From Arenicola marina (Eukaryota; Annelida; Polychaeta; Arenicolidae), in the NCBI GenBank assembly GCA_964019135.1, contig OZ025248.1, forward strand, positions 76,204,119 to 76,268,118: a stretch of DNA of 64,000 nt, in the 5' to 3' direction. A model generated the notes under the pieces. It saw nothing but the letters and a program-made list of their open reading frames with translations. It searched no databases and was not told the origin of the DNA. Within the stretch, counting starts at the first letter, position 1; each line of letters starts with the position of its first letter. The translations under genes were made by a program, and so were the position numbers. Positions 3,591 to 44,424 of this stretch are shown in pieces.

Positions 3591-3815
3591 CTGTCGCATT
3601 TATCAATAGTACAGTACGTCAAATGAATGAATTGATAAAGTTTGAGTGTGCTGTCCAACTAGTCGATCAGTTGTGTTATATAGGGCATAATTTAGGATAA
3701 AATCAAATACGTGACTAATAGTGATAATCATAACGTCTTTATCACATACAAACATAATGTTGTTCTCGGTAACGAAATGGCACTAACTTCATAACAATTA
3801 TGACATTTAAATTAG
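3591..3815. other. MRPL19 intron sequence left of the LINE
   Basis: AT-rich intron on the acceptor side of the MRPL19 penultimate exon. No further exon is seen. It ends with the 5' copy of the LINE target duplication (3803-3815). Confidence 0.6.
3803..3815. repeat. 5' target-site duplication of the LINE
   Basis: ACATTTAAATTAG at 3803-3815 is repeated exactly at 18926-18938, directly after the A-rich tail of the LINE. The AC at the start of the 3' copy could belong to the tail, so the duplication is 11 to 13 bp. It fixes the element boundaries and shows insertion by target-primed reverse transcription. Confidence 0.88.
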
Positions 3816-4090
3816 TTAACGTTACAAAATGGCCACGGAGAGTAGGACGTGTGATTTGGGCAGCGTCCTCGAGTGTAAAATAACCCAGTAAACGGGCTTT
3901 CAGTGCCCCGACACTATGGATTAGAAACTGTGTAAGGATATCGGGATCACCGACCAAAGAATCTGTCCTGATAACTATTGCTGACGACATCATTATTTGG
4001 AATATATCTAAACCACAATATTGATTGTGCGGAGCTTGACAGGCGGCATAGCACCATTCGACATGCCTGCCTAGGTTGGGGGCCGTCTCA

Positions 4091-7000
4091 ATGGGCAGGA
4101 GGAAGAGTGAGAAGCGCCGGCGACACAGCAGTGGGGCCACGACCCCCGTTAAAGCGGACGATAAGAGACAACGTACTCTGTCAGATTGCTTTCAACACTT
4201 GGATTCTCTGTCGGAGGCCCCCATTGCAGTACAGAATATGGCCGATGGACTTGTTGTGGATGTGCAGGGTATAAAAGATACCTTGCGCGATATATTAGAC
4301 AATGTGTCTTGTCTACCGAGCATGCAATCGGCATTGCAAGAAATGAATAAATAAGTAGAATCTCTCAAACAATCGGCCGAATTCAACAGCAAGAAGCTGT
4401 TGGCATTAGAAAAGGAGAATAAGGAGCTCCGACAGGAAAAAAACGCTTTGAAGAAAAGCGACCCATCGAAGCAATTCTCATCTCTGGTTGACCAGACATC
4501 TAAGTTAAAGAAAGACCTTGTAGCCATGGAAACATACAGCAGGAAAGAAAATCTTGTGTTCCATGGCATCGGCGAGTCAACGTCGGGTGAAGAGGATTGT
4601 GCAAGACTGATCCAGGAGATTGTCCAGAACAAGCTCGACCTACCAGGTGACATGAAGCTCCAGAGATGCCACAGACTGAGCCAGAAGCCCAACTCGGGCT
4701 CCCCTCGGGACAGGCAGCGACCCATCATTGCCCGCTTCGCCTTCTACGCAGACAGAGAGTCCGTGTGGAAGGCTAGGCCGAAGCCACGTGGGAGTAAAGT
4801 GTACATCGAAGAGGACTTTCCTCGAGAGGTACAGGATCGCCGCCGGATCCTGATTCCCGTCATGAGAGCGTCACGCCGAGACGGACATCGGGCTACAGTG
4901 CAAGGTGATCGCCTGATTCCCGTCATGAGAGCGTCACGCCGAGACGGACATCGGGCTACAGTGCAAGGTGACCGCCTGATTCCCGTCATGAGAGCGTCAC
5001 GCCGAGACGGACATCGGGCTACAGTGCAAGGTGACCGCCTGATTCCCGTCATGAGAGCGTCACGCCGAGACGGACATCGGGCTACAGTGCAAGGTGACCG
5101 CCTGATTCCCGTCATGAGAGCGTCACGCCGAGACGGACATCGGGCTACAGTGCAAGGTGACCGCCTGATTCCCGTCATGAGAGCGTCACGCCGAGACGGA
5201 CATCGGGCTACAGTGCAAGGTGATCGCCTGATTCCCGTCATGAGAGCGTCACGCCGAGACGGACATCGGGCTACAGTGCAAGGTGACCGCCTGATTCCCG
5301 TCATGAGAGCGTCACGCCGAGACGGACATCGGGCTACAGTGCAAGGTGACCGCCTGATTCCCGTCATGAGAGCGTCACGCCGAGACGGACATCGGGCTAC
5401 AGTGCAAGGTGACCGCCTGATTCCCGTCATGAGAGCGTCACGCCGAGACGGACATCGGGCTACAGTGCAAGGTGACCGCCTGATTCCCGTCATGAGAGCG
5501 TCACGCCGAGACGGACATCGGGCTACAGTGCAAGGTGATCGCCTGATTCCCGTCATGAGAGCGTCACGCCGAGACGGACATCGGGCTACAGTGCAAGGTG
5601 ACCGCCTGATTCCCGTCATGAGAGCGTCACGCCGAGACGGACATCGGGCTACAGTGCAAGGTGACCGCCTGATTCCCGTCATGAGAGCGTCACGCCGAGA
5701 CGGACATCGGGCTACAGTGCAAGGTGATCGCCTGATTCCCGTCATGAGAGCGTCACGCCGAGACGGACATCGGGCTACAGTGCAAGGTGACCGCCTGATT
5801 CCCGTCATGAGAGCGTCACGCCGAGACGGACATCGGGCTACAGTGCAAGGTGATCGCCTGATTCCCGTCATGAGAGCGTCACGCCGAGACGGACATCGGG
5901 CTACAGTGCAAGGTGATCGCCTGATTCCCGTCATGAGAGCGTCACGCCGAGACGGACATCGGGCTACAGTGCAAGGTGACCGCCTGATTCCCGTCATGAG
6001 AGCGTCACGCCGAGACGGACATCGGGCTACAGTGCAAGGTGATCGCCTGATTCCCGTCATGAGAGCGTCACGCCGAGACGGACATCGGGCTACAGTGCAA
6101 GGTGACCGCCTGATTCCCGTCATGAGAGCGTCACGCCGAGACGGACATCGGGCTACAGTGCAAGGTGACCGCCTGATTCCCGTCATGAGAGCGTCACGCC
6201 GAGACGGACATCGGGCTACAGTGCAAGGTGATCGCCTGATTCCCGTCATGAGAGCGTCACGCCGAGACGGACATCGGGCTACAGTGCAAGGTGATCGCCT
6301 GATTCCCGTCATGAGAGCGTCACGCCGAGACGGACATCGGGCTACAGTGCAAGGTGATCGCCTGATTCCCGTCATGAGAGCGTCACGCCGAGACGGACAT
6401 CGGGCTACAGTGCAAGGTGACCGCCTGATTCCCGTCATGAGAGCGTCACGCCGAGACGGACATCGGGCTACAGTGCAAGGTGATCGCCTGATTCCCGTCA
6501 TGAGAGCGTCACGCCGAGACGGACATCGGGCTACAGTGCAAGGTGACCGCCTGATTCCCGTCATGAGAGCGTCACGCCGAGACGGACATCGGGCTACAGT
6601 GCAAGGTGACCGCCTGATTCCCGTCATGAGAGCGTCACGCCGAGACGGACATCGGGCTACAGTGCAAGGTGACCGCCTGATTCCCGTCATGAGAGCGTCA
6701 CGCCGAGACGGACATCGGGCTACAGTGCAAGGTGATCGCCTGATTCCCGTCATGAGAGCGTCACGCCGAGACGGACATCGGGCTACAGTGCAAGGTGATC
6801 GCCTGATTACCGTCATGAGAGCGTCACGCCGAGACGGAAATCGGGCTACAGTGCAAGGTGACCGCCTGATTCCCGTCATGAGAGCGTCACGCCGAGACGG
6901 AAATCGGGCTACAGTGCAAGGTGACCGCCTGATTCCCGTCATGAGAGCGTCACGCCGAGACGGACATCGGGCTACAGTGCAAGGTGACCGCCTGATTCCC

Positions 7001-10000
7001 GTCATGAGAGCGTCACGCCGAGACGGACATCGGGCTACAGTGCAAGGTGATCGCCTGATTCCCGTCATGAGAGCGTCACGCCGAGACGGACATCGGGCTA
7101 CAGTGCAAGGTGACCGCCTGATTCCCGTCATGAGAGCGTCACGCCGAGACGGAAATCGGGCTACAGTGCAAGGTGACCGCCTGATTCCCGTCATGAGAGC
7201 GTCACGCCGAGACGGACATCGGGCTACAGTGCAAGGTGACCGCCTGATTCCCGTCATGAGAGCGTCACGCCGAGACGGACATCGGGCTACAGTGCAAGGT
7301 GACCGCCTGATTCCCGTCATGAGAGCGTCACGCCGAGACGGAAATCGGGCTACAGTGCAAGGTGACCGCCTGATTCCCGTCATGAGAGCGTCACGCCGAG
7401 ACGGAAATCGGGCTACAGTGCAAGGTGACCGCCTGATTCCCGTCATGAGAGCGTCACGCCGAGACGGACATCGGGCTACAGTGCAAGGTGACCGCCTGAT
7501 TCCCGTCATGAGAGCGTCACGCCGAGACGGAAATCGGGCTACAGTGCAAGGTGACCGCCTGATTCCCGTCATGAGAGCGTCACGCCGAGACGGACATCGG
7601 GCTACAGTGCAAGGTGACCGCCTGATTCCCGTCATGAGAGCGTCACGCCGAGACGGACATCGGGCTACAGTGCAAGGTGATCGCCTGATTCCCGTCATGA
7701 GAGCGTCACGCCGAGACGGAAATCGGGCTACAGTGCAAGGTGACCGCCTGATTCCCGTCATGAGAGCGTCACGCCGAGACGGAAATCGGGCTACAGTGCA
7801 AGGTGACCGCCTGATTCCCGTCATGAGAGCGTCACGCCGAGACGGACATCGGGCTACAGTGCAAGGTGACCGCCTGATTCCCGTCATGAGAGCGTCACGC
7901 CGAGACGGACATCGGGCTACAGTGCAAGGTGATCGCCTGATTCCCGTCATGAGAGCGTCACGCCGAGACGGAAATCGGGCTACAGTGCAAGGTGACCGCC
8001 TGATTCCCGTCATGAGAGCGTCACGCCGAGACGGACATCGGGCTACAGTGCAAGGTGATCGCCTGATTCCCGTCATGAGAGCGTCACGCCGAGACGGACA
8101 TCGGGCTACAGTGCAAGGTGACCGCCTGATTCCCGTCATGAGAGCGTCACGCCGAGACGGACATCGGGCTACAGTGCAAGGTGACCGCCTGATTCCCGTC
8201 ATGAGAGCGTCACGCCGAGACGGACATCGGGCTACAGTGCAAGGTGACCGCCTGATTCCCGTCATGAGAGCGTCACGCCGAGACGGACATCGGGCTACAG
8301 TGCAAGGTGACCGCCTGATTCCCGTCATGAGAGCGTCACGCCGAGACGGACATCGGGCTACAGTGCAAGGTGACCGCCTGATTCCCGTCATGAGAGCGTC
8401 ACGCCGAGACGGACATCGGGCTACAGTGCAAGGTGATCGCCTGATTCCCGTCATGCGAGCGTCACGCCGAGACGGACATCGGGCTACAGTGCAAGGTGAC
8501 CGCCTGATTCCCGTCATGAGAGCGTCACGCCGAGACGGACATCGGGCTACAGTGCAAGGTGACCGCCTGATTCCCGTCATGCGAGCGTCACGCCGAGACG
8601 GACATCGGGCTACAGTGCAAGGTGACCGCCTGATTCCCGTCATGCGAGCGTCACGCCGAGACGGACATCGGGCTACAGTGCAAGGTGACCGCCTGATTCC
8701 CGTCATGAGAGCGTCACGCCGAGACGGAAATCGGGCTACAGTGCAAGGTGACCGCCTGATTCCCGTCATGAGAGCGTCACGCCGAGACGGAAATCGGGCT
8801 ACAGTGCAAGGTGACCGCCTGATTCCCGTCATGAGAGCGTCACGCCGAGACGGAAATCGGGCTACAGTGCAAGGTGACCGCCTGATTCCCGTCATGAGAG
8901 CGTCACGCCGAGACGGACATCGGGCTACAGTGCAAGGTGACCGCCTGATTCCCGTCATGAGAGCGTCACGCCGAGACGGAAATCGGGCTACAGTGCAAGG
9001 TGACCGCCTGATTCCCGTCATGAGAGCGTCACGCCGAGACGGACATCGGGCTACAGTGCAAGGTGACCGCCTGATTCCCGTCATGAGAGCGTCACGCCGA
9101 GACGGACATCGGGCTACAGTGCAAGGTGATCGCCTGATTCCCGTCATGAGAGCGTCACGCCGAGACGGAAATCGGGCTACAGTGCAAGGTGACCGCCTGA
9201 TTCCCGTCATGAGAGCGTCACGCCGAGACGGAAATCGGGCTACAGTGCAAGGTGACCGCCTGATTCCCGTCATGAGAGCGTCACGCCGAGACGGACATCG
9301 GGCTACAGTGCAAGGTGACCGCCTGATTCCCGTCATGAGAGCGTCACGCCGAGACGGACATCGGGCTACAGTGCAAGGTGATCGCCTGATTCCCGTCATG
9401 AGAGCGTCACGCCGAGACGGAAATCGGGCTACAGTGCAAGGTGACCGCCTGATTCCCGTCATGAGAGCGTCACGCCGAGACGGACATCGGGCTACAGTGC
9501 AAGGTGATCGCCTGATTCCCGTCATGAGAGCGTCACGCCGAGACGGAAATCGGGCTACAGTGCAAGGTGACCGCCTGATTCCCGTCATGAGAGCGTCACG
9601 CCGAGACGGACATCGGGCTACAGTGCAAGGTGACCGCCTGATTCCCGTCATGAGAGCGTCACGCCGAGACGGACATCGGGCTACAGTGCAAGGTGACCGC
9701 CTGATTCCCGTCATGAGAGCGTCACGCCGAGACGGACATCGGGCTACAGTGCAAGGTGACCGCCTGATTCCCGTCATGAGAGCGTCACGCCGAGACGGAC
9801 ATCGGGCTACAGTGCAAGGTGACCGCCTGATTCCCGTCATGAGAGCGTCACGCCGAGACGGACATCGGGCTACAGTGCAAGGTGACCGCCTGATTCCCGT
9901 CATGAGAGCGTCACGCCGAGACGGACATCGGGCTACAGTGCAAGGTGACCGCCTGATTCCCGTCATGAGAGCGTCACGCCGAGACGGACATCGGGCTACA

Positions 10001-11470
10001 GTGCAAGGTGACCGCCTGATTCCCGTCATGAGAGCGTCACGCCGAGACGGACATCGGGCTACAGTGCAAGGTGACCGCCTGATTCCCGTCATGAGAGCGT
10101 CACGCCGAGACGGACATCGGGCTACAGTGCAAGGTGACCGCCTGATTCCCGTCATGAGAGCGTCACGCCGAGACGGACATCGGGCTACAGTGCAAGGTGA
10201 TCGCCTGATTCCCGTCATGAGAGCGTCACGCCGAGACGGACATCGGGCTACAGTGCAAGGTGACCGCCTGATTCCCGTCATGAGAGCGTCACGCCGAGAC
10301 GGACATCGGGCTACAGTGCAAGGTGACCGCCTGATTCCCGTCATGAGAGCGTCACGCCGAGACGGACATCGGGCTACAGTGCAAGGTGACCGCCTGATTC
10401 CCGTCATGAGAGCGTCACGCCGAGACGGACATCGGGCTACAGTGCAAGGTGACCGCCTGATTCCCGTCATGAGAGCGTCACGCCGAGACGGACATCGGGC
10501 TACAGTGCAAGGTGACCGCCTGATTCCCGTCATGAGAGCGTCACGCCGAGACGGACATCGGGCTACAGTGCAAGGTGATCGCCTGATTCCCGTCATGAGA
10601 GCGTCACGCCGAGACGGACATCGGGCTACAGTGCAAGGTGATCGCCTGATTCCCGTCATGAGAGCGTCACGCCGAGACGGACATCGGGCTACAGTGCAAG
10701 GTGACCGCCTGATTCCCGTCATGAGAGCGTCACGCCGAGACGGACATCGGGCTACAGTGCAAGGTGACCGCCTGATTCCCGTCATGAGAGCGTCACGCCG
10801 AGACGGACATCGGGCTACAGTGCAAGGTGACCGCCTGATTCCCGTCATGAGAGCGTCACGCCGAGACGGACATCGGGCTACAGTGCAAGGTGACCGCCTG
10901 ATTCCCGTCATGAGAGCGTCACGCCGAGACGGACATCGGGCTACAGTGCAAGGTGACCGCCTGATTCCCGTCATGAGAGCGTCACGCCGAGACGGACATC
11001 GGGCTACAGTGCAAGGTGACCGCCTGATTCCCGTCATGAGAGCGTCACGCCGAGACGGACATCGGGCTACAGTGCAAGGTGATCGCCTGATTCCCGTCAT
11101 GAGAGCGTCACGCCGAGACGGACATCGGGCTACAGTGCAAGGTGACCGCCTGATTCCCGTCATGAGAGCGTCACGCCGAGACGGACATCGGGCTACAGTG
11201 CAAGGTGACCGCCTGATTCCCGTCATGCGAGCGTCACGCCGAGACGGACATCGGGCTACAGTGCAAGGTGACCGCCTGATTCCCGTCATGAGAGCGTCAC
11301 GCCGAGACGGACATCGGGCTACAGTGCAAGGTGATCGCCTGATTCCCGTCATGAGAGCGTCACGCCGAGACGGACATCGGGCTACAGTGCAAGGTGATCG
11401 CCTGAGAATCGACGGAAAACTTTACTCCGTGGACACTCTTAATTTGCTCCCTGAAAACTGGATAAAGTAG
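4091..11470 (+). pseudogene. LINE ORF1 (L1 ORF1p-like) with a 104-copy internal repeat
   Basis: ORF1 encodes the RNA-binding nucleic-acid chaperone of the LINE. ATG is at 4091 (MGRRKSEKRRR, basic). A heptad-rich, Lys/Glu-rich stretch (about 4270-4490) suggests the coiled coil. An RRM-like segment follows, with ETYSRKENLVFHGI (from about 4529) and RPIIARFAFYADRESVWK (about 4720-4775). The C-terminal domain begins DFPREVQDRRR, is interrupted by the array, and resumes with RIDGKLYSVDTLNLLPENW before the TAG at 11468-11470. TAA at 4352-4354 (after QEMNK) is an in-frame nonsense codon in otherwise continuous frame, probably from CAA. With one repeat copy the protein would be about 296 residues, normal for the family. 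With 104 copies it is about 2459 codons. Confidence 0.88.
4850..11401 (+). repeat. 63-bp in-frame array, exactly 104 units
   Basis: From 4850 to 11401 is 6552 bases, which is exactly 104 x 63. Each unit encodes 21 residues: LIPVMRASRRDG, then H or N, then RATVQGDR. Identity is extremely high. Recurrent variants are CAT/AAT (His/Asn), GAT/GAC, ATGAGA/ATGCGA (8451, 8580, 8643, 11226) and one ATTACC (near 6807). Asn units occur only between about 6838 and 9546. The Asn spacing at 7340, 7403, 7529, 7718, 7781, 7970 recurs at 8789, 8852, 8978, 9167, 9230, 9419, an offset of 1449 bp = 23 units. No unit breaks the frame. The antisense strand is also open across the array, which I treat as a by-product. 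Confidence 0.97.
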
Positions 11471-12397
11471 CGGATAAAATACAGGGATTGGCTATGTAAG
11501 TACCCGATGGCATTGGTTGTTAAAATATTGTTTATTGATATGGTAATTATTTTGTGACTTTATTGTCTGGCATTAATGTTCGCCACTTTTTAATTTTTAT
11601 ACGGCCCCGTGTCTATTCAGGCATGGCGAAAGTAAACACTGAGTGGAAGAGCTGCACGTGTTGTGCCTGACGTATAAAATGCCATCGGCGTGCTTGGTGT
11701 CAAACGCTGTTTATTTCCTTGCTCATTACCATTTGTCGAACACGGCCTGCCACTGTGAGCGGACCTTGATGTTTTGTTCTACTCCTGTTTTTGACCCGTG
11801 GTTTGTTTTTCTATTGTATTGTTGGTATAAATGAGCATACCACGCATTGTGTTGTAGCCCGGGCGTAAGAACGGGGATAGGCTTAGGCAAAATGAGTTTG
11901 AGAACTTGTGTAGAAAGTGCCTCTTGAGGCAATGCGCTATGGACCATAAGAATTACTCGATGTTTTTACCTGATCGGAGTGAATTTTGTCTTGTCGGTCT
12001 ATTACGCTAATGCGGCCTGCAGTTTGCTTATTGTGTGGTTGTACAGTATTGATGCACGTGTCCGCCGTAGATGTTAGCTCATTCCGTTTGGTATGTGCTG
12101 GTTGGAATATGTATATGCGTGGTCCCCGGGGACATAATGTGTCAGCGCGAGTCGAGTAAATGTTTTTGATCGCAGAAGTTGTGACTAAGGTTCTTCAATC
12201 AATAAGAGTTAATACTGCTCGGGAACACTGTACTCTTCGCTGGCTGATTGTAAAGTTTATATTCCTTTATATCTCGTTTTATATTATGATTTATAACATA
12301 TATTTGCGTACCCCGCTATTTCGCCTAAAATCCATAACAGATGCAAACAGGAATCTACATGTAAAATGTGTGATTACGAGTATGAGTAAATGTCGTT
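11471..12397 (+). other. LINE inter-ORF region
   Basis: About 930 bases between ORF1 and ORF2 with no coding signal. Long for this type of LINE, so it may include remnants of a further insertion or a decayed ORF2 start. Short open frames here have no recognisable content. Confidence 0.55.
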
Positions 12398-14925
12398 ATG
12401 ACTCACATAACCGTATGTAGTATGAACGTGAGAGGGCTCGGATCTTCAACTAAGAGAACCGACGTCACGAGCTGGCTCGAGGGAAAGCGCGCTTCCATCT
12501 ATTGTTTGCGAGATGTCCATTTCAACGCTTTTGTAGAACTCCAGTTAGAAAGGGAGTTTGACGGAAAATACTATGTTAACTCGCCATCCTCTCAAGCAAG
12601 AGGAGTGGCCATTCTCTTAAAAAATACATTCGAATTTAATGTACACAATGTGAAAAGAGATGATAAAGGAAATTTATTGGTACTGGACGTAACGATGTGT
12701 GGCAATAGATTGTCTTTAGTTAACGTGTATGGACCTAATCGAGACGAGCCTGATTTTTATTGTAATATGCACAAGGTAATTGAGAATTTAGATAACCCCA
12801 GTATGATTATTTGTGGCGACTGGAACCTTGTCCTCGACTTTGAGCTAGATACAATTGGCTATAAACGTGAGAATAATACTATGGCAAGGAAAACCGTCGA
12901 TACAATGATAGACAAATTGGAACTTATTGACTCATGGAGGGTTAACTCCCCACACACAAGGCGCTTCACCTGGACTAATCAGCAGAGAAAGAGCCAGAGA
13001 GCAAGATTAGATTTTTTTCTGTTATCCTCAGACATACATGCTGCTGTGCAGAGGGCAGATATTAGATCAGGGTAGAGAACAGATCACTCCTTAGTTAGCG
13101 TTAACGTTGATTTTTATCGGGCAGATAGAGGTAAAGGATTTTGGAAATTTAACACATCGCTTTTGAGAGATTCTGAATATGGACAGCTGGTAGACGAATG
13201 TATTTTACATACAATTAAAATGTACCAAGTTTCGGCTGAGAATAATAGTACTGGCAGCACTAATTTGATAATTAATGATCAGTTGTTTGAAATGCTAAAT
13301 TTGGAAATCAGGGAAAAAACAATAAGCTACAGTAGTCATAAGAAAAGGGTTTTGCAGCAAGAAGAGATTAGTTTAGAGCAACAAATCAATGAACTTGAAA
13401 CATGCAATGAAGATAGCCAATCGGGTCAGGAACGATTAGATGAACTCAAATTTAAACTGGAACAGGTAAGACTGCCGCGCATGAAAGGTGTGTTTCTGAG
13501 ATCCAAATCACGGTATTATGAAGAAGGGGAAAAGGCTAGTAGTTTTTTTTGTAATTTAGAGAAGCAAAATTATGTGAATAAGCTTATTAAGGTATATATT
13601 CGGTTATATGTAAATGGAAAAGAAATCAAGCAAGAAGAAATATTGAAGGAACAAATGCACTGCTATGAATCTTTGTACAGAAAGCAAGATGAGAAAAAAG
13701 CTGACTGTCATGTGGCATCTTTCTTAAATAATGAAAATGTGAAAAAATTAAGCGTTGCACAAAGCGAGTTGTGTGAAGGGGATATTGAGATGAACAAAAT
13801 GGCAGATGTTGTGATGCATATGAAAAATGATAAGTCACCTGGCAGTGATGGGTTTCCCGTTGAGTTTTTATAAATTCTTTTGGAAAGATATAGGACCGTT
13901 TCTATTAAAAAGCCTCCAGTATGCATTGGACTCTCAGACCCTCTCCGTAACACAAAGACAGGGGGTGATTACGTGTCTACCAAGGGAGATAAGCCAAGAG
14001 CTTTTATGAAGAATTGGCGCCCAATCTCACTGCTAAATACTGACTACAAAATATTGTCTGGTGTATTAGCGCGTCGTATTAATAATAGTGTTGCCAGATA
14101 TAGTAAGTTCAGACCAAAAAGGCTTCTTGAAAGGTAGATATATAGGTGAAAACACCAGGATGGTGTATGACATCATGCATTATTTAATAGACAAAAAAAG
14201 GTCTGGAATGTTACTTCTAATAGATTTCGAAAAGGCTTTTGATACTTTAAGTTGGAAGTATGTAAATCAGGTGCTTCATTCATATGGTTTCGGAAGGGGT
14301 TTCTCCAGGTTCGTTAATATTCTGTACAATGGTGCGTCTGGTTGTGTTATCAACAATGGTTTTTTCTCACGTTTTTTCTCCTTGGGCAGAGGTTTCCGAC
14401 AGGGCGACCCGTTGTCACCTTACCTTTTTATACTCTGTATTGAACCGCTCGCGATGGCGCTAAAACGTGACAAATGGGAGTATAAAATTGGACAATATGC
14501 TGATGATACGTTTCTGTTATCATTAGATAACAGATAACAGAGCTGTCTGTTAGAAATGCTTTACACCTGTTGGATAAGTTTGGCATATGTTCGGGTTTAA
14601 AGGTTAATGTAGAACAAACTAAAGCTGTCTGGCTGGGGAAAAGAGATCCAGAAAGAAAAGCTATATGTTCGGAGCTGCCAATTTCTTGGGGGGAAGAGTT
14701 TACCTTGCTGGGTATTAAATTTTGTGTAAATCTACAAGATATGATTAGCATTAATTATAGCCACAAGGTAGCGGAATTTGAAAAAGTTTTAACGATATAT
14801 GGCAAGAGAAATCTCTCTCTACGAGGGAGAGTGACTGTTGTTAATGTGATCGCCTTGCTAAAACTTATCCATGTCTTAACCGTACTTCCAACGCCCGGAA
14901 AACAATATATTGATAGAATAAACAA
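12398..14925 (+). pseudogene. LINE ORF2 5' part: APE endonuclease and reverse transcriptase
   Basis: Encodes the target-cleaving endonuclease and reverse transcriptase. ATG is at 12398 (MTHITVCSMNVRGLG). Endonuclease motifs: NVRGL, CLRDVHF (LQE/DTH-type position), VNVYGPN, IICGDWN, RLDFFLL and TDHSLV. An in-frame TAG at 13073-13075 precedes the TDHSLV motif. RT motifs: KNDKSPGSDG (13825), NWRPISLLNTDYK (14012), QKGFLKGRYIGENTR (14118), LLIDFEKAFD (14215), FRQGDPLSPYLF (14395) and the catalytic YADD (14497). Frameshifts fall near 13860, 13970 and 14115, and the frame breaks again just after 14530. The element could not make an intact ORF2 protein from this copy. It is split at about 14925 after DRINK by the insertion, and the C-terminal part resumes at about 17610. 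Confidence 0.92.
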
Positions 14926-17610
14926 GAGATATTCGACCATAGGTCGAGGACGAAAATACATAAGTACATTTAGGAGCTGTATTAATGGCGACGTTACGAG
15001 TCGTCAGGGCCAATTTTAGCTAAAGGGCCTTATAGGGGCAATTTGGGATAAATGCTGCCTTCGACAGGCAGTGTGGCACTGTAGGCGGAGCTTAATTGAA
15101 CATCCAGTTTGAAGCCCAGGCGCTTCTCTTGAAGCAATATTAACGGTACTTTCGTATCTTTTATTTATTATGTCTTCGTGACTTCACGAACTTCATTTGA
15201 CGACCACGACAATATTCGCGATGGCTTCTATTTTGTTAAGTATACCTACTTACGAAATCATGGGTGAACTCATGAACTTGTGGGTGATGGTAGCTATTGC
15301 CAAATTAGCTGAACATCAAGCAGGCCCAAACTTTCGTAGGAGCACGTAAGCTATGACGTTGACGCACACTTAGCCCCCTCGCCATAGGTGTCTCTGAAGA
15401 CGACGTGTTTAAGTGAACATGAAATTTTGTTCTTAAGAGCGATTGCTTGACTCATTATGAATGGCGCTACGAATTTTACTTTTTATCTAATAATACGTCA
15501 TCGTGACGTGACATGACGTCATTTGACGTTGGCGCAAATGCTCAAGATGGCTTCTAATTCTTTAATATATCTACTTATCAACTCGGGTTATGACAGCTAT
15601 TGCCAAAGTGGCTAAAAGTAAAACAAACCCAACATTTCGCAGGGGCACGTTAGCTATGACGTCATTTTTGACGCATACTTATCCCCTGCGCCAAAACAGT
15701 TACACACGGCACAAACTGTCCCTGAACACGACCTGCAACGTAAAGCGACCCGAAAGTCGCCATACCTTATGATAGCTGAGTAATAGCTTACGTACAATGT
15801 GTGACGTCGTGACGTCATAGTGACGTTATGACGTGACGCACGACAACGTCCAAGTGGCAATACGCCAAGGTTTACTGCCACAACTTATTCGATTGAAGAG
15901 CTAGGCAATAGAAAGAATAGTCCTTCAGCTATGGCTTGACGAAATGGCCAAAAGTTGCATTAGTTCATCATTGCGGAGACACGGAGACCTAGGATAAGAA
16001 CAAAGAACCCTGCATGCCAAGTGATATAGCAACTAATTTGTTTCTTTTACTAGTTCTCTGCCGATCGCTGGTCCCTACCATTTGGCGTAAAGATCACAGC
16101 TCTGGCATGTTTTTCTTAATTTTGACGTTGTTTTAAAGATAGACACAATCTCCATTCACTCCTCAATGGTGTCCCCGCAAAGGTGTCGTCCCACTTTGAA
16201 GCACTCTTGCGCCATAACTGAGCAACATCCGCCTGATTGAAGCATTAAGTGATCTGTAGATGCTTATTGGCAACTAGTGGGCGAAAAGAATGCAATTTTA
16301 GCATTTTTATCTGATTTTTGACGATTTTTCTTTCAATGGCAAGAATCTGTATGTTTATCATTAGGCCAGTGGCTTCGTTGCCATGGAAACAAAAGGTAAT
16401 ACAGATATCGCCGTGTTTTTCTTATAACTTGCTTACAGATAATATTACCTCACTGTGTGGCGAAGGAGACTGAAATAACTTGAGTGGAAGTAGGTCATAT
16501 TCGATCAAGGTCATTTTTCCCCATAGGATCCCATGTTAAACGATTTCGACTATATACCGAAAAGTAATGTGGCTATGGAACCATGTTGACAGATTATGAC
16601 TCAGCTTAGTATTATCCATCCACAGCTGCAAGCATTGAGTGATGACTTGAATAGGACACCCGTGGGAGCCTCTGCTAACACCCAAAAGCCGTATCTTTCA
16701 CCATTGGCCAAATTTCAAAAAAATCCTGTGACGTCACTATTTGCTCCAATCGCATGCGATAAGCACTGAGGCTACTATGTATCATGTTTAACTAAGAAAA
16801 AAATGCCGGTGTCGCTTGATGGAGGCACTTGTGAAATACACGACAAAACATTTTTCCCAGCCTAAAGATACAGCGCTTTAACATGGGAAGTCCCATAGAG
16901 AACTGCCGTCGGCCCTGGAACCGGAAGTAAGATAGGAACATATTGTTTTTAGTTTGCAGCTATACGAGGAACTACGTTTCCTACAATATGATGCTACTCA
17001 CTCATTTTTGGGATTTTTTCCTGATTTTTGACGATTTTTTTTAAGTACTAAAAGTGACGTCATCGTGACGTCACGTGACGCATCGGAGAGCTCTAAGATT
17101 TCACACAACTCATCTCAATTCATATTTCTATGGCATATTAGAACATCATAGCGATAGCTTGATGGCAAATGTGCCCAAAAGCGAGAAAACTGACAAAGGT
17201 CATTTAGTGCGTTTTCCGCAAAACGTACGACCTCATTTTACTCGAAATGACTATTACGCATCAAAAAGTGAACAATACCCGAAAACTGCGCCTTAAAGTG
17301 TAGCACATTTTACAACTCACCCGGAATCTCTATCTTTAATATAAACGGAGATATATGCATTCTAATTTTGTTTTCAAAAAATCGCTGTGACCTTGACCTT
17401 TGACCTTTTGACCTGGGTGACGAGTACGTTCTAGCCCTACTCCGTAGCTATAAGGTACTAAAGACTGCGAACCGATGCATGCAGTTGTTAGGCCATAAGA
17501 AGACTTTCCGTTTTTGCGTGAAACAGACATACATATATATATACATATATAGAAACAGACAAACTCACACGACCAACCGACATATGACGAAAATTGAAAA
17601 TTTTCGTCAT
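14925..17610. mobile_element. ~2.7 kb non-coding insertion within LINE ORF2
   Basis: LINE coding sequence stops after YIDRINK and resumes with VIRRFVWNNKKPRIS, so the block between is a later insertion. It has no convincing gene. It contains many TGACGTCA-like words. A ~330-bp tandem duplication is visible: the segment near 15130-15400, with GCTATTGCCAAA and AGCTATGACGT, recurs near 15480-15700. The phrase CTGATTTTTGACGATTTTT occurs near 16310 and 17025. A short palindrome of ACGAAAATT/AATTTTCGT lies at about 17587-17609, near the right junction. No clear terminal inverted repeat or target duplication could be assigned, so the ends are approximate. Confidence 0.7.
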
Positions 17611-18840
17611 AACAATGTCATTCGTAGGTTTGTGTGGAACAACAAAAAGCCCAGAATATCTCTGAATAGAATGGCCCAATCTGTCGAAAATGGCGGAGTA
17701 AACCTGCCTCTAATACAACTGAAGATACAAGCTCTTAAGATAACATGGATACAAAGACTAATATCCAACGAAGGTTCATGGCAAGAACTCTTCTGTGAGA
17801 CTATATGTAGTGAACGTCGAATGTGCTGGGAATTGGATCTCCTTTCTTTAAAACAGTTTACAACGGTATCAAATCCTTTCTGGGCCGAAGTCTTTATGGC
17901 ATTGTATAAATACAGATCGAGCTTAAATGAGGTGCAAACGGTTTTTGAATATCCACTTTGGAACTCGTTCTTTATAAAAAACGATAATCTTCGAAAGCGA
18001 AAACACGAGCTTATTAGATGTGGCGTTATGTTTATTAATGATCTTGTTGATGACAACGGAAATTTATTCGGTTGGGAAACGTTTGTACAGAAACATCATG
18101 CAGATCTAAATTTCGTAGACTGTTATAGTTTGATTCATTGTATACCCCGCGAATGGAAAGAGGCGTGTAGAAATGCAAATGTAAAACTATCACATGTACC
18201 TTGCAGCTGGACAGCATCTATTTTAAATTCACAACATCTATGCAAATATGTTTATAGAAAACTGGTTGGGTCCTTGGATTATCATGTAAAGAATGAAGAA
18301 AAGTGGGCAGCAGTGTTTAACGAGCAAATAGATAGCGGCAAATGGAATCAAATATATAATTTACCATTGCACTGTACCATTAAACAGTACGAGAAGTTTC
18401 CAGTATTTAATCTTACATCGAGCACTTGTGACGAATATTTTTCTTCATAAATGTAAGTTAAAACCCAATGATAGATGTGATTTTTGCGGAAGCGAACCAG
18501 AAACTATAGAACATTTGTTGTTTAGTTGCCGGCATATAAAGCCTTTGTAGTCTCTTTTGGTACTATGGTTAAATGAGTCATACAATATATCCTTACCAGT
18601 CGATTTTCAGTCATGTATATTGGGTGAACGTAAGACCTTATACAGCCAACTCATTAATCATGTATTTTTAATAACTAAGAAGTATATATATATAGATGTA
18701 AATGGATGAATATAGCTCCGAATTTTATCGGTATTAAAAACACTATTATATATCATTATAAATTAGAAAAGTACACGTCCAAAATCTCCAACTTTGCAAA
18801 GAAATGGAAACCTCTCTCAAGCTCTTTAAAATGTAACTAA
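17610..18840 (+). pseudogene. LINE ORF2 3' part with CCHC-type zinc knuckle
   Basis: C-terminal continuation of the LINE ORF2. It starts FVWNNKKPRISL, then GGVNLPLIQLKIQALKITW, the conserved segment after the RT thumb in L1/Tx1 LINEs. A frameshift near 18447-18452 moves the frame into CDFCGSEPETIEHLLFSC, a zinc-knuckle-like Cys/His cluster (18475-18530). An in-frame TAG at 18548 and a slip in the (TA)n tract near 18690 follow. The final frame runs NFAKKWKPLSS to TAA at 18838-18840. KKW near the end is typical of the family. The mutation load is similar to that of the 5' part, as expected for one old copy. Confidence 0.88.
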
Positions 18841-18925
18841 ATATTGTGATATAAATTGACGAACTTGTTGTATATCTGCATTTTGGTTATGGAAAAAAAA
18901 CAAAAAAACAAAAAACAAAAAAAAA

Positions 18926-18938
18926 ACATTTAAATTAG
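18926..18938. repeat. 3' target-site duplication of the LINE
   Basis: ACATTTAAATTAG directly follows the A-rich tail and equals 3803-3815. Confidence 0.88.
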
Positions 18939-20159: not shown

Positions 20160-23100
20160 TTAGGCATTATCGCAAGTTGGACTCGCACTGCAAGTACACA
20201 GAACAGTACATGAAAGATTATTTTGGACACATGAGCAACTTGCAGAGCACCGGCTGCGAGCCTTGCATGAACAAACGAGATCCTTAAGTAGTTCAGATGC
20301 TGTTGGCCCTTCGAACAGAATCGGGAGAAGACGGCCACAGCTGTCTCTTTTCCATCCACATCTCTCGGGAGACCCGATGTCTGGTCGCGTTTGGTGAGAG
20401 GACAACCATATCTTGGTCTGCCACGATGCCCTCTCGACGTGCTGCTTGAAACTGTCCTCGCAGGGTGGCAACTGAAACAGCGACTTATCCTTGGTTTTGG
20501 CAAGCTTTACTCTAAGTTCGTTGAGATCCCCATGACTACTGCATAGTTTGCCTCCCTGGTCGTACAAGTAGGAAACGAGCTTCCTTGCAGCGAGTACATC
20601 TTCATCGTTTGATCCCAAACACGCGAGGTCACCGAAGTGCCTTCCACCTTTTCCAGTCAAGACCTTGTAAAGGGACTTCTTTCCTATCCCGAAGAATGAT
20701 GAGACGGAGTCACAGCCTGTTAACGCATGTGCCGCAGGAAGCATCTGGCACACGTCACGAGGAAGAGCATGACAGATTTGATGAACGGGTACAAATCTGC
20801 GAGAGTCAATTGTAGCGGTGATCCCTCCTGTTTGAATCCACACCTCATCAATGTGATCCATTTGTGGGAAGTAGTGGAGGGCAAGAACTAGAACATCTGT
20901 GTCTGCAGAGTTAATCACAATGGTTCCCGTGATGCGGCGTGCACGAAAAGTTGTGTTTGCATGCATTGCATGCATAATCATGCGAGTGTCTGCTTCCTCG
21001 TGGTTACAGAAGAGGTTTAACGCATCAGCCACACCGGCAACAGTGATCGACTTTGTAACCTCTCCGTCAGTGAATCCTCCTGCCAGAAACAAGGCCTGCG
21101 TGGGACGAGAAATCTTTGGTGCGGCATGGAGCGTGATACACTGGCACAAAAAGTGGGACAGCGACGCTTTGTTGGCATCAACATTCAGGAACTTCCTCCA
21201 CGGCGGGACAGGGCGACCACCGATTACCTCATACTGTCTGCTCCCGATTACTGCTTCAGCGCGTCTTTCTCTCTCACAGGTCTTCACTAAGTTTGGATTA
21301 TCATACCCGTCAAAGACGCCAATAACAGTATCAGCTTTGTCAAAGCATGCAAGAAGCTGCCTCATATATGCGGTAGCAAGGTCGTCGAAGGTTGAGTAAT
21401 TGTCGCCATTCATAGCTTGCACAACAGCCATGGCGTCTCTGATATATATCGTTGTAGCAGCGCTGGCATGAATCATTTTCTGTGACGAAGCCAGTGACTG
21501 CAACTGATGCGCGAGATCTGCCTTGTTGGTTGTTCGTTGTGATCCATCTTCATGGAAAAGGGATGTTGGGACGGACCCTATCGGGTGACTGAAGACTGTT
21601 TCGATACTGACATCTTCTCGACATCTTGCTAAGGTCAAGGCATGCCGAAAAGTTGCTTCGGGACTCACGACAGCAGCGACAATGCCCCGTTTGCCCGCTT
21701 GAAATTTAGTTTTCTTCATCATGTCCTCAAACGTCTTAAGCCCAGACTGACTAATGGGGCTGTAGAAGCTGTGGTCCTCGCCGGTACTCAAGGTCCGTTT
21801 GATGAACGTTTGCATCTGCTTTTGGCCCATTTTAGTGGCGTTTAGTAGAGAGACTTGTACATCCTGGCTAGCATCGAGACCAGTGGAGATGTTTACCAAC
21901 ACATCAGGATGACTGTCTACGTCAAAGGGGTTTGTCATGTTGGTTCTGATATGACTGGTCAGGTCAGTTACACGTTGCTCATCTCTTTTCATTGCGGAAG
22001 ACAAGGTCTCAGCGTGTGCATTGTGAATGTCATCCTTTGTATCGACATAGCCGATTCGCTCGTTCATGGCTCGTGCATACTGTCCCATGATATCTCTTGT
22101 GAGTGTCCATCTCACGAGAGCTGCTTTCTTGCGCGTCAATCCAACGATTCCGCTACTACTTTTAGAGTCTCTTATGACAATCTTCTCCGTACCCATGTCG
22201 CTCCATATCCCATTGAATGAGCCCGCAGTCTGACGGAATGCAAACTGACCTGCCTGGAATGCGGCTTTGACGTCGTCTGGTAGATTCATCATGTCCTGCA
22301 AATATACGGTTGACCACCTTGCATAGTTGGTCCTGTTGGTGCAGAAGAAGTACGGGATCATCAGGTACACAGAACGCAAGTGTAGGTCCCACACCCCATC
22401 GCGTTCTGCACGTACATTGAGGAGGAGTACATTTACAGCTTGAAGAAATTGGTACCAAAACTGAAACGTTGGAGATCTGGCATTGCCCCAGTCCAGGAAT
22501 TCTTGGAAGAGTGGCAGCAGATGTTCTTGAAGTACATCATCTAACTCATTCAGATCGGCTTGCAATCCTGGCTGATCCTTCTCCCGAGCTGCTTTCTGGG
22601 TTTCCGTGAGATGTCGCCAGATATACTCGGGAATGCTATCCAGCTTCTTGTTCAGGTTACACCATTTGAAGAATGATGAAAGCCACACTTCCATGAGCGC
22701 CTCATAAGCCAAGGTCAGACCGCGAACGCCGCGCTGGGATTGCTTACCGGCTAACATTTGATCTGTTGTGAGAGCGGCATAAACATCAGAATCAACAAGT
22801 AAGTCACGAAGTCCGGCACCCCCCCCCCCCACACCTTGCCAATGGATGCTATGAAGCAACAAAGCATGTGGAATCCCCCTAGTCGCAGTATTGTTAACCG
22901 GAATTCATCCGACATATGCCACTTTGACTTGCTGCGCAACGGCATAAAGCTGTTGGTCCATAGTTTGAATGGCATACGGTTACCCTAGTCGTTCGCACAT
23001 CTGCTTGCTTTTCAACATGGTGGTGTAGACAGTAGCCATGTCAGCCGGCTTGGCATTTATAATTGGTGCATATGAAAAGGCCGTGTATGAATGCCGCTGC

Positions 23101-24448
23101 TTGGCCGTTAAGTGGTTAAACCCTGTCCAAAAAGGAATAACCTGATCTGCAGGGTAGCCCAATCCTTTTGGTATTGGGAGGATCGCTCTGGATATCACTC
23201 GAAGCATACACCAAGCTATTTCACGAATCCCAGCTCCTGTGTCGGCCAGCTGGTTCATTCTGTCATAAGCGTTGTCGTCACGAGGTGGTTCTGATCGTTG
23301 TTGAGGCTTCGCAAATACAGCACACCGCATGAGAGATTCTGTCTCCTCACTGATGACGAGGGATTTCTCCTTTACTGGTTTGATAGGGCATGGATGATGT
23401 CCTGGGTCGCCGCTTTGTTGTTGGAACACGACACGTGCCATGGCATGAAAGGTGTTTGTACCATTTACGGTTTCGACATTGATATCTATGTTATCATCAC
23501 CTTCATGAATCAGGTTTCCTCCCGAGTGCACCGGTAGGATCGCACTGGGCATGTAGACTCCATCCTCAATTCTTTCCGTTTCTGCTTTGGCAGTACTGGT
23601 CAGAAACCGTCGCAGTTCGTCATAGCTGACGCAAAACCCATGGTGGTAGAGAATATCTATGAGCCTTTTAGATCCAAACTCATGATGCAGCTGAGCGGCT
23701 AAGCCCATATGTAGGGGCGTTAGTATGTGTTTACCATTAAACAGTATGCATTCTGAAAGGGCAAGACATTTTCTTCGAATCTCTTCTGATGTGGTGTACT
23801 TTGTTTCCTTTGAATTGAAGGCCCCATCATCCAAGAGATATAGAAGAAATTGCGCTAAAGCGGCTGGTACAAGTTTTTCTGATGCATCTAATGTGACACC
23901 ATTTGGTGTTGGGTACTCAACGGGCACAGTTGCAACAATTTTTTGTCTGATAATAGCAGCAGCTTGATGCAAGATGGATTCGTTCGAAGTCGATTGAGCA
24001 GCAGCAAAATCCTTCTCAATATCCGATGCGTTAAGGTCATTCTTCAGCTTATTGGCGGCCCCCACTGCTGCTCCTAGTGTGATCGCACTGCTCACAATAA
24101 TATTGGATTTTTCTTGACCATGTTGCTGAAGTACAACAATAGCCTCCCCGTAGTGTTTTGCTAGCCTAGTTTGTAGCTTGTGTGTTGTGTACTTCTGCGA
24201 GTGCATTCCTCTGGTAGCAATGCTTGGTATCTCTCCAAGATGTTGATCAAAAGAAAAGCCTTCTTGTGAACCATGAGGTCGTTCTCTATTTCTTTTATCA
24301 GGTGGTCAAAAGCCAAATTGTGTATCGACTGAGGTGTGATCTGAACAGAAGACCGGTCAACGCGCATTTTCAGGTATGATGCTAGACACGACGAATGATA
24401 ATGTGCTTCTTTAGCAATCAGATCCTCTCCGTTGATCCTGTGCAACAT
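20160..24448 (-). pseudogene. Transposon protein with FEN1/XPG-type nuclease core and Cys-rich tail
   Basis: A large protein in three main frames. 24448-24161 is an N-terminal piece with EAHYHSSC, a possible zinc site. 24206-22980 is a central 408-codon piece ending in a TAA after CERLG. 22862-20160 is 900 codons. Frameshifts join them near 24180, near 22910 and at a C-run (22820-22833). In the 900-codon part the region from about residue 470 resembles FEN1/XPG nucleases: IYIRDAM (~476), GVFDGYDNPNLVK with RERRAEA (~516-537), HEEADTRM (~621), NSADTDVLVLAL (~651), and ALTGCDSVSSFFGIGKKSLYK (~713), which fits the helix-3-turn-helix LxGxD..GIG pattern. These cover all the acidic metal-site positions of FEN1. 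The tail CSCKARSRCSASCSC resembles CXC/tesmin Cys clusters. Related proteins are common in cnidarian and molluscan genomes (from memory). Stops and shifts make this copy inactive. Confidence 0.82.
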
Positions 24449-29959: not shown

Positions 29960-32900
29960 CACATTCGTCGAGTCTTTACGGAGAACTTCCTTCGGTGTCT
30001 CGATCGTTATGGGGATCATACCATTAAGATTATAAGCTCGTAAACGATAGCAGGATTCATTACTCCGTGCCATATATAAAATACACTACAGTATGATCCA
30101 TTACTTCATACCGTCTATCCGAGAGTACAGCATGATATTCTTACTGTCATGATGAATCTCATGGAAAAATGGTCTACGAGCTCTATTTACGACTTTATAT
30201 TAAAAGGATCCCCTGTAAGGCCTACCACGGCCGCAATGTTCCAGGTCCTGGTCACCTTTGGCCCGTATCATCTGTAATAGAGAAAAGCACCATTCGAAGA
30301 TTAGTTCACATACCACCAATTTTAACCGAGACATTCCTTCACTGTCTCGATCGTGATGGGGATCATAACATTAAGATTATAAGCTCGTAAACGATAGTAG
30401 GATTCATTACTCCGTGTCATGTATAAAATACGCTACAGCATGATCCAGTACTTCATACCGTCTATCCGAGAGTACAGCATGATATTCTTACTGTCATGAT
30501 GAATCTCATGGAAAAATGGTCTACGAGCTCTATTTACGACTTTATATTAAAAGGATCCCCTGTAAGGCCTACCACGGCCGCAATGTTCCAGGTCCTGGTC
30601 ACCTTTGGCCCGTATCATCTGTAATAGAGAAAAGCACCATTCGAAGATTAGTTCACATACCACCAATCTTAACCGAGACATTCCTTCACTGTCTCGATCG
30701 TGATGGGGATCATAACATTAAGATTATAAGCTCGTAAACGATAGCAGGATTCATTACTCCGTGCCATATATAAAATACACTACAGCATGATCAATTACTT
30801 CATACCGTCTATCCGAGAGTACAGCATCATATTCTTACTGTCATAATGAATCTCATGGAAAAATGGTTTACGAGCTCTATATAAGACGTGATATTAAAAT
30901 GATCCCCTGTAAGGCCTACCACCGCCGCAATGTTCCAGGTCCTGGTCGCCTTTGGCCCCTATCATCTGTAATAATGAAAGCACAATTCGAAGACTAGTTC
31001 ACATTCCACCAGTCTTTACCGAGACATTCCTTCACTGTCTCGATCGTTATGGGGATCATACCATTAAGATTATAAGCTCGTAACCGATAGCAGGATTCAT
31101 TACTCCGTGCCATATATAAAATACACTACAGCATGTTCCATTATTTCATACCGTCTATCAGAGAGTACAGCATGATATTCTTACTGTCATGATGAATCTC
31201 ATGGAAAAATAGTCTACGAGCTCTATTTACGACTTGATATTAAAAGGATCCCCTGTAAGGGGTACCACCACCGCAATGTTCCAGATCCTGGTCGCCTTTG
31301 GCCCCTATCATCGGTAATAATGAAAGCAAACTTCGAAGATTAGTTCACATGCCACCAGTCTTTAGCGAGACATTCCTTCACTGTCTCGATCGTTATGGGG
31401 ATCATACCCCTTAAGATTATAAGCTCGTAAACGATAGCAGGATTCATTACTCCGTGTCATGTATAAAATACGCTACAGCATGATCCAGTACTTCATACCG
31501 TCTATCCGAGAGTACAGCATGATATTCTTACTGTCATGATGAATCTCATGGAAAAATAGTCTACGAGCTCTATTTACGACTTGATATTAAAAGGATCCCC
31601 TGTAAGGCCTACCACCGCCGCAATGTTCCAGGTCCTGGTCGCCTTTGGCCCCTATCATCTGTAATAATGAAAGCACAATTCGATGATTAGTTCACATTCC
31701 ATCAGTCTTTACCGAGACATTCCTTCACTGTCTCGATCGTTATGGGGATCATACCATTAAGATTATAAGCTCGTAAACGATAGCAGGATTTATTACTCCG
31801 TGCCCTGTATAAAATACACTACAGCATGATAAATTGCTTCATACCGTCTATCCGAGAGTACAGCATGATATTCTTACTGTCATGATGAATCTCATGGAAA
31901 AATGGTCTACGAGCTCTATTTACGACTTTATATTAAAAGGATCCCCTGTAAGGCCTACCACGGCCGCAATGTTCCAGGTCCTGGTCACCTTTGGCCCGTA
32001 TCATCTGTAATAGAGAAAAGCACCATTCGAAGATTAGTTCACATACCACCAATTTTAACCGAGACATTCCTTCACTGTCTCGATCGTGATGGGGATCATA
32101 ACATTAAGATTATAAGCTCGTAAACGATAGTAGGATTCATTACTCCGTGTCATGTATAAAATACGCTACAGCATGATCCAGTACTTCATACCGTCTATCC
32201 GAGAGTACAGCATGATATTCTTACTGTCATGATGAATCTCATGGAAAAATGGTCTACGAGCTCTATTTACGACTTTATATTAAAAGGATCCCCTGTAAGG
32301 CCTACCACGGCCGCAATGTTCCAGGTCCTGGTCACCTTTGGCCCGTATCATCTGTAATAGAGAAAAGCACCATTCGAAGATTAGTTCACATACCACCAAT
32401 CTTAACCGAGACATTCCTTCACTGTCTCGATCGTGATGGGGATCATAACATTAAGATTATAAGCTCGTAAACGATAGCAGGATTCATTACTCCGTGCCAT
32501 ATATAAAATACACTACAGCATGATCAATTACTTCATACCGTCTATCCGAGAGTACAGCATCATATTCTTACTGTCATAATGAATCTCATGGAAAAATGGT
32601 TTACGAGCTCTATATAAGACGTGATATTAAAATGATCCCCTGTAAGGCCTACCACCGCCGCAATGTTCCAGGTCCTGGTCGCCTTTGGCCCCTATCATCT
32701 GTAATAATGAAAGCACAATTCGAAGACTAGTTCACATTCCACCAGTCTTTACCGAGACATTCCTTCACTGTCTCGATCGTTATGGGGATCATACCATTAA
32801 GATTATAAGCTCGTAACCGATAGCAGGATTCATTACTCCGTGCCATATATAAAATACACTACAGCATGTTCCATTATTTCATACCGTCTATCAGAGAGTA

Positions 32901-35093
32901 CAGCATGATATTCTTACTGTCATGATGAATCTCATGGAAAAATAGTCTACGAGCTCTATTTACGACTTGATATTAAAAGGATCCCCTGTAAGGCCTACCA
33001 CCACCGCAATGTTCCAGATCCTGGTCGCCTTTGGCCCCTATCATCGGTAATAATGAAAGCAAACTTCGAAGATTAGTTCACATGCCACCAGTCTTTAGCG
33101 AGACATTCCTTCACTGTCTCGATCGTTATGGGGATCATACCCCTTAAGATTATAAGCTCGTAAACGATAGCAGGATTCATTACTCCGTGTCATGTATAAA
33201 ATACGCTACAGCATGATCCAGTACTTCATACCGTCTATCCGAGAGTACAGCATGATATTCTTACTGTCATGATGAATCTCATGGAAAAATAGTCTACGAG
33301 CTCTATTTACGACTTGATATTAAAAGGATCCCCTGTAAGGCCTACCACCGCCGCAATGTTCCAGGTCCTGGTCGCCTTTGGCCCCTATCATCTGTAATAA
33401 TGAAAGCACAATTCGATGATTAGTTCACATTCCATCAGTCTTTACCGAGACATTCCTTCACTGTCTCGATCGTTATGGGGATCATACCATTAAGATTATA
33501 AGCTCGTAAACGATAGCAGGATTTATTACTCCGTGCCCTGTATAAAATACACTACAGCATGATAAATTGCTTCATACCGTCTATCCGAGAGTACAGCATG
33601 ATATTCTTACTTTCATGATGAATCTCATGGAAAAATGGTCTACGAGCTCTATTTTCAACTTTATATTAAGAGGATCCCCTGTAAGGCCTACCACCGCCGT
33701 AATGTTCCAGGTACTGGTCGCCTTTGGCCCCTATCATCTGTAATAATGAAAGCACAATTCGAAGACTAGTTCACATTCCACCAGTCTTTAGCGAGACATT
33801 CCTTCACTGTCTCGATCGTTATGGAGATCATACCATTAAGATTATAAGCTCGTAAACGATAGTAGGATTCATTACTCCGTGCCATATATACAATACACTA
33901 CAGTATGATCCATTACTTCATACCGTCTATCCGAGAGTACAGCATGATATTCTTACTGTCATGATGAATCTCATGGAAAAATGGTCTACGAGCTCTATTT
34001 ACGACTTGATATTAAAAGGATCCCCTGTAAGGCCTACCACCGCCGCAATGTTTCAGGTCCTGGTCGCCTTTGGCCCCTATCATCTGTAATAATGAAAGCA
34101 CAATTCGAAGATTAGTTCACATTCCACCAGTCCTTACCGAGACATTCCTTCACTGTCTCGATCGTTATGGGGATCATACCATTAAGATTATAAGCTCGTA
34201 AACGATAGCCAGATTCATTACTCCGTGCCATATATACAATACACTACAGCATGATCCATTACTTCATACCGTCTATCTGAGAGTACAGCATGATATTCTT
34301 ACTGTCATGATGAATCTCATGGAAAAATGGTCTACGAGCTCTATTTACGACTTTATATTAAAAGGATCCCCTGTAAGGCCTACCACGGCCGCAATGTTCC
34401 AGGTCCTGGTCACCTTTGGCCGGTATCATCTGTAATAGAGAAAAGCACCATTCGAAGATTAGTTCACATTCCACCAGTCTTTAGCAAGACATTCCTTCAC
34501 TGTCTCGATCGTTATGGGGATCATACCATTAAGATTATAAGCTCGTAAACGATAGCAGGATTCATTACTCCGTGCCATATATAAAATACACTACAGCATG
34601 ATCCACTACTTCATACCGTCTATCCGAGAGTACAGCATGATATTCCTACTGTCATGATGAATCTCATGGCAAGATGGTCTACGAGCTCTATTTACGACTT
34701 TATATTAAAAGGATCCCCTGCAAGGCCTACCACCGCCGCAATGTTCCAGGTCCTGGTCGCCTTTGGCCCCTATCATCTGTAATAATGAAAGCACAATTCG
34801 AAGATTAGTTCACATTCCACCAGTCTTTAGCGAGACATTCCTTCACTGTCTCGATCGTTAAGGGGGATCATACCATTAAGATTATAAGCTTTTAAACGAT
34901 AGCAGGATTCATTACTCCGTGCCATATATAAAATACGCTACAGCATGATCCATTAATTCACACCGTCTATCCGAGAGTACAGTATGATATTCTTACTGTC
35001 ATGATAAATCTAATGGAAAAATGGTCTACGAGCTCTTTTTACGACTTGATATTAAAAGGATCCCTTGTAAGGCCTACCACCGCCGCAATGTTC
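29960..35093. repeat. 346-bp satellite, 15 full copies, with a 5-unit higher-order repeat
   Basis: The same word ATGGTCTACGAGCTC (or ATAGTCTACG variant) recurs at about 30169, 30516, 30862, 31208, 31555, 31902, 32249, 32595, 32941, 33288, 33635, 33981, 34327, 34674 and 35021, a period of 346-347 bp. Block 30169-31901 is repeated nearly exactly from 31902; variant positions 30865 and 31208 match 32598 and 32941, an offset of 1733 bp = 5 units. The left edge is a diverged partial unit from about 29960. Repeated 73-codon open frames on the plus strand are satellite artefacts. On the minus strand each unit has a pyrimidine-rich stretch followed by TTACAG|ATGAT and a possible donor GTAGGC 46 bases on. 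Confidence 0.96.
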
Positions 35094-35835: not shown

Positions 35836-35840
35836 TACTC

Positions 35841-43235: not shown

Positions 43236-43254
43236 CAAGCCAAATTGGAATTTA

Positions 43255-43690: not shown

Positions 43691-43694
43691 AATT

Positions 43695-44420: not shown

Positions 44421-44424
44421 CAAC

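Follow-up and report, generated by a model that had tools for sequence, protein, structure and literature searches.

A 63-bp segment of a LINE ORF1 in long in-frame arrays at two loci of Arenicola marina: a probable young satellite in decayed elements

How satellites originate and how they spread to other chromosomes is an old open question. The minisatellites of soybean are reportedly arrays that lie inside LTR elements and have expanded locally. In Lathyrus sativus, LTR retrotransposons are described whose internal short tandem arrays gave rise to satellites (PMC7004042). LINEs are also named as a source, both through their untranslated regions (PMC12628747) and through their coding sequence, PROsat and Pvc20 being attributed to LINE-1 ORF2 and chicken HinfI to the 3' UTR and part of ORF2 of CR1 (PMC9659126). 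On a smaller scale, the length polymorphism region of mouse L1 ORF1 is reported to contain in-frame repeats of 66 bp and 42 bp (PMC3600994).

The locus analysed here resembles each of these systems in part. As with the Lathyrus satellites, a tandem array sits in a dispersed retrotransposon and has expanded at some loci; the elements in that account are LTR elements with pre-existing short arrays, whereas here the source is a stretch of LINE coding sequence of which the other copies found have just one. The derivation of tandem DNA from a LINE coding region is shared with PROsat, Pvc20 and HinfI, but their description points to ORF2, and here it is ORF1 that is amplified, in an array that has kept its original position, register and frame. 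An in-frame tandem duplication inside L1 ORF1 is likewise what is described in mouse; there the coiled coil of L1 families holds two to four units, whereas here a dead copy has 104, and they lie in its C-terminal domain. An array of such size in a LINE ORF1 was not found in the open-access literature, which is limited evidence. We read the array as a young transposon-born satellite (a long minisatellite) of a 63-bp piece of LINE coding sequence that has moved between LINE fossils by DNA recombination, and give this reading a probability of roughly 0.7.

The array and the element that carries it

The window is the whole 64,000-nucleotide stretch analysed (C1:76204119-76268118), and genome-wide statements refer to the 867-Mb assembly in 762 contigs. 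A unit scan, TRF and a mismatch search place the array at 4850..11401 on the plus strand, where 104 consecutive units of exactly 63 bp (21 codons, LIPVMRASRRDGHRATVQGDR) follow one another without a single indel. TRF reports a period of 63 and 104.1 copies (4849-11405), the overhang being the 5-bp CCTGA common to both ends, a motif that stands at the unit start and again after the unit end. Allowing up to 3 mismatches, the window has 104 matches to the unit and its 100 shuffles have none. The initial annotation had described exactly 104 x 63 bp, nearly homogeneous and unbroken in frame, and these searches bear it out, copy number and homogeneity being those of the arrays as assembled. There are five distinct unit sequences and four variable positions: position 7 (7A, P to T, 1 copy), position 16 (16C, synonymous, 4 copies), position 37 (37A, H to N, 17 copies) and position 60 (synonymous, 77 C versus 27 T). 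In the order of the unit types a block of 12 units is met again 23 units further on, 9 of its units being informative, where 200 shuffles never exceeded 6; exchange of many units at once is a natural cause of such a recurrence. The open frame through the array runs for 2356 codons from a TTG (4400-11470), and on the minus strand one frame is also open across it, for 2202 aa. Other arrays of the window have long open runs too. At its start (1-2685), for example, lies a 45-bp minisatellite of about 60 copies in which one frame is open for up to 657 codons, an internal control for open frames where the repeat unit is divisible by three.

The array is carried, together with a nested insertion, by a full-length L1-type LINE copy (3816..18925, plus strand), as delimited by sibling alignments and by a target-site duplication. 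The latter is an exact 13-bp repeat, ACATTTAAATTAG, at 3803..3815 and 18926..18938; homology to the siblings begins at 3824-3827 and the longest sibling alignments span about 3824 to about 18925. In the two siblings tried the duplication is weak, at 8 and 9 bp. All coding parts lie on the plus strand. ORF1 begins with its own ATG at 4091, and frame analysis and sibling comparison show its N-terminal part (4091..4354) to end at an in-frame TAA (4352-4354) between this ATG and the array. The remainder of ORF1 5' of the array (4355..4849), recognised with a family profile compared with LINE-1 ORF1p (2yko), is what we take to be the end of the coiled coil and the RRM-like domain; 3' of the array, open-frame analysis places the ORF1 C terminus, stop codon included, at 11402..11470. 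The endonuclease part of ORF2 (12398..13072; Pfam Exo_endo_phos, E 9.7e-9; LINE-1 endonuclease 2v0r, E 7e-21) is followed by an in-frame TAG, and the linker and reverse transcriptase (13163..14925) are spread over several frames, with RVT_1 at 14088-14534 (E 5e-17) and LINE-1 ORF2p 8c8j (E 2e-14) as the best solved-structure match. A nested insertion of 2.7 kb (14926..17610) is missing from the aligned siblings, whose alignments jump from 14925 to 17611, and the C-terminal part of ORF2 (17611..18450) is an open frame that in siblings is uninterrupted with the rest of ORF2.

Membership of the L1 type is indicated by the APE-type endonuclease and the reverse transcriptase, both of which are nearest to LINE-1 among solved structures, and the 13-bp duplication around the copy agrees with target-primed insertion. 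For ORF1, a family profile of 12 sequences matches human LINE-1 ORF1p (2yko) at E 2e-13; the L1 ORF1 domain was not found when Pfam was scanned with the window piece alone. The profile match stops about ten residues into the unit, which presumably places the unit at the start of the ORF1p C-terminal domain. Both earlier proposals, that the host is an L1-type ORF1 and that the unit lies inside its C-terminal domain, are in agreement with this, the second more precisely at the domain start.

Elsewhere in the window, a 347-bp satellite (29960-35836; 14.8 copies, 93%) directly adjoins a 14-bp array of about 53 copies, and two inverted 124-bp arrays (41874-46952), with arms of up to 647 bp and 95% complementarity, surround other tandem repeats and may be a foldback-type DNA element. 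On the minus strand, two adjacent long open frames of 900 and 408 aa (20160-24206) match nothing in Pfam at E 1. The window gave no hit in scans for Rfam families and tRNAs.

Single-unit siblings and the decay of the window copy

Seventeen single-unit loci (L012-L028) and three pieces from the C9 chromosome were fetched. The unit is matched once in each of 16 of the 17 (L012-L027), that of L027 being cut, and L028 has a partial match below threshold. The flanks had been said to join perfectly with one copy (DRRR + unit + RIDGKLY), and the single-unit siblings show this same join; of the one-copy and n-copy forms looked for among the siblings, the first is present in L012-L027 and the second at C9. 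An uninterrupted ORF1 of 296 codons with the same start motif and one unit is found in L018, L020 and L021, three of the nine siblings translated. Even in old copies the unit is fairly conserved, with 3 differences in L019 and 7 in L026, a point against the reading given above. Among 67 database relatives, a profile of the segment matched 45 and left 22 unmatched; 44 of the 45 have a single match, and the second match in P0008 appears only at E 11. The relatives P0001 and P0002 carry one unit each, and in a protein search with 12 units P0001 was the sole match among 7995 candidates scored. A scan of viral contigs for relatives found none. The unit is therefore single-copy in relatives of the element (L012-L027, P0001, P0002), as is characteristic of a satellite derived from a transposable element.

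Many of the same database relatives have a further feature: 26 of the 67, within P0003-P0057, carry a precomputed NADAR domain (PF08719), which a Pfam scan confirmed in P0005 and weakly in P0009. The combination of an ORF1-like protein with NADAR thus recurs in public data.

The window copy is dead. The TAA at 4352 is absent, by alignment, from siblings L014, L018, L019 and L020 and from the C9 copy, and it is because of this codon that the long frame through the array begins after a stop. In ORF2, the TAG past the endonuclease is accompanied by further frame changes and by 9 private indels over its two parts. Outside the array, 5303 columns were compared; they gave 68 substitutions private to this copy, alongside 14 private indels, using ten of the 17 siblings offered (4, 10, 10, 9 and 7 siblings in five pieces, with sibling coverage of more than 93% of the piece). 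At this rate 6552 bp would be expected to hold about 84 substitutions and 17 indels, rough figures in that some private changes may predate the insertion, and the array has 4 variable sites and no indels. An array with 4 variable sites where some 84 are expected is either younger than the copy or has been homogenised since; on these rough figures it has grown, or last been homogenised, well after the decay of the copy began.

A second array and the meaning of the open frame

A genome-wide search for unit-to-unit junctions with up to 2 mismatches gave a count of 189. Local counts put 103 in the window and 86 at C9, which accounts for all 189, and L011-L028 contain none. The second array (C9:14429884-14435301), on a different chromosome, has 86 units of exactly 63 bp followed by a decayed 87th with one inserted base, and shares flanking motifs and register with the array on C1. 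Its host is an old, decayed LINE relative, with 77% and 85% identity to the window over two upstream stretches. The 400 codons upstream contain 15 stops, the array is directly preceded by 31 open codons, and a match to ORF2 at E 1e-10 is lacking from the 10 kb downstream. The C9 array is nevertheless as open as that of the window, so that an open array needs no live ORF1.

A free satellite unrelated to LINEs was rejected, as the junction search found none outside the two LINE copies. According to the initial annotation, other arrays lacking LINE flanks would speak against a birth inside the element; one other array does exist, but it has LINE flanks of its own. The related proposal of a satellite born in a LINE coding frame holds for the birth inside a LINE, although the birthplace may have been the C9 copy rather than that of the window. 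We also rejected a segmental duplication from C1 to C9, the matches outside the LINE (window against L009 and L011) being only scattered. A stretch of 97% identity over 110 bp beside the C9 array (the 47 bp of flank nearest the array plus its first unit) was considered as a transfer tract and dropped, old single-unit copies being equally similar: the 47-bp flank has one difference at C9 and none in the decayed L023, L024 and L026. Near both array loci there is a dispersed repeat of about 95% identity (window 36631-37455; L011 924-1426), which is probably an unrelated element.

With two arrays at hand it can be asked whether the assembly has collapsed or inflated a repeat, or placed one array twice. 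The high uniformity of a 6.5-kb array would fit such an artefact, but each array has private variants (37A only at C1, 24C only at C9), the flanks of the two differ and there is no N in the window or the fetched loci, and we consider an artefact very improbable.

The initial annotation had further envisaged an expressed ORF1 protein with an Arg-rich, solenoid-like tail of ~2200 residues. The run of 104 units without stop or indel speaks for such a functional protein; an ATG at 4526, 3' of the TAA, could open a frame through the array, and an AlphaFold2 model of nine units is a beta-solenoid (pLDDT 76.5, pTM 0.71). The variants lean slightly in the same direction, since the two arrays together have five distinct ones, 3 synonymous and 2 missense, where the possible changes number 53 and 130; the chance of this is 0.15, and protein-level selection is neither shown nor excluded by it. 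Against a live coding frame, the frame that opens at the ORF1 start is cut by the TAA at 4352 before it reaches the array and ORF2 is broken as well, the array is younger than the decay of the copy, and the equally open array in the wrecked C9 copy serves as a control. Among the ORF1 matches listed (152, with 150 of 1462 candidates scored) open frames reach at most 362 aa, the window with 2371 being the exception. The solenoid-like tail likewise falls back on the AlphaFold2 model, and such solenoids of perfect repeats are reported to be unrealistic (PMC11795689). The AlphaFold2 model of a relative with one unit was poor (pLDDT 48.7). On account of the stop before the array, the broken ORF2 and the C9 control, we rejected a functional solenoid ORF1, to which we attach hardly any probability at all; a truncated product begun at ATG 4526 would be compatible with the sequence.

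Shared variants and transfer between LINE copies

The variants within the units bear on how the two arrays are related. A genome-wide search for exit junctions, from unit to the following flank, gave 16, namely the two array ends and 14 single units, and all 14 of the latter have T60; together with L023 and L024, all 16 informative single-unit copies have T60. In the arrays most units have C60, at C9 (61/86) as at C1 (77/104). The variant 16C occurs in 15 units at C9 in addition to the four at C1, and 7A in one unit of each array, on different backgrounds. Among full single units, of which there are 15 (L012-L026), none has 7A, 24C or 37A and one has 16C (L020). The commonest unit is identical at the two loci, and their upstream element flanks differ by 15-23%. 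Three of four variants would be common to both arrays with a chance of 1.4e-5 under uniform draws, an optimistic figure because L020 has 16C and the 7A units stand on different backgrounds; the sharing of 16C and 7A may reflect parallel changes, and C60 carries most weight.

If one slippage-prone site had expanded independently in each of two LINE copies, with parallel variants, this would account for the shared start and end motifs of the arrays and their CCTGA microhomology, and the presence of 16C in L020 fits such parallelism. Against this, C60 prevails in both arrays and is found in none of the 16 informative single-unit copies, and three variants, that at position 60 among them, are shared; we regard independent expansion as unlikely. 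The satellite reading is common to this explanation and to the one we prefer, and the two differ only in the transfer step. That an array-bearing LINE RNA was retrotransposed, both arrays deriving from a mobile element that carried the array, seems more doubtful still. The window copy is indeed a full-length insertion with a 13-bp duplication, and variants are common to the two arrays; but the identity of the commonest unit contrasts with flanks that are 15-23% different, the close siblings found have one unit, and the genome-wide junction search gives two array loci only. We hold it more probable that the two LINE copies exchanged units as DNA than that the arrays were born separately or spread by retrotransposition of array RNA; this step rests on few variable sites.

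The variant 24C, private to C9, is concentrated towards the edges of its array. Of the 11 units with 24C at C9, 7, 8 and 8 lie within the outer 6, 10 and 15 units of both ends (Fisher p 4e-5, 0.00025 and 0.014, with cut-offs picked after seeing the order). The direction of a transfer is hinted at, short of proof, by position 60 in the end units. At C1 the array both begins and ends with a unit of the ancestral T60 type; at C9 C60 is found in the first unit and in the decayed final one, but the 86th has T60. This would suit C9 as the older home of the array.

On the satellite reading, the first duplication could have come about when replication slipped, or switched template, from one to the other of the CCTGA motifs on either side of the unit, and growth and homogenisation by unequal exchange, of which the repeated 12-unit block would be a trace. 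Units would then have passed from one LINE copy to the other as DNA, whether as a circle recombining into a resident single unit, through conversion or through break-induced copying, and the dispersed single units would have been the places of entry. The open frame is explained by the origin of the unit, 21 codons taken from a coding frame, and by the youth of the copies, which have not had time to decay. Long homogenised arrays are present at two loci, and it is the broken frames of their hosts that suggest the absence of a coding role implied by the term satellite, or minisatellite; a protein function of the array is not expected.

A more tentative proposal, at somewhat less than even odds, is that fossil LINE copies, each with its one unit, are pre-placed landing sites, through which an array can enter the copy on another chromosome in register, by way of the unit and without retrotransposition. 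At least 19 copies bear the unit (17 single and 2 arrays), and two of these would have been so changed, perhaps from the older C9 to the younger C1.

For the interpretation of other genomes, the locus is a warning: where a repeat unit is a multiple of three, even a very long open frame is no evidence for a protein. For the origin of satellites, this genome holds the stages side by side, with single-unit copies, a young array in a datable insertion and a second array in an old copy, and there are only a few loci to follow for the stages of satellite birth.
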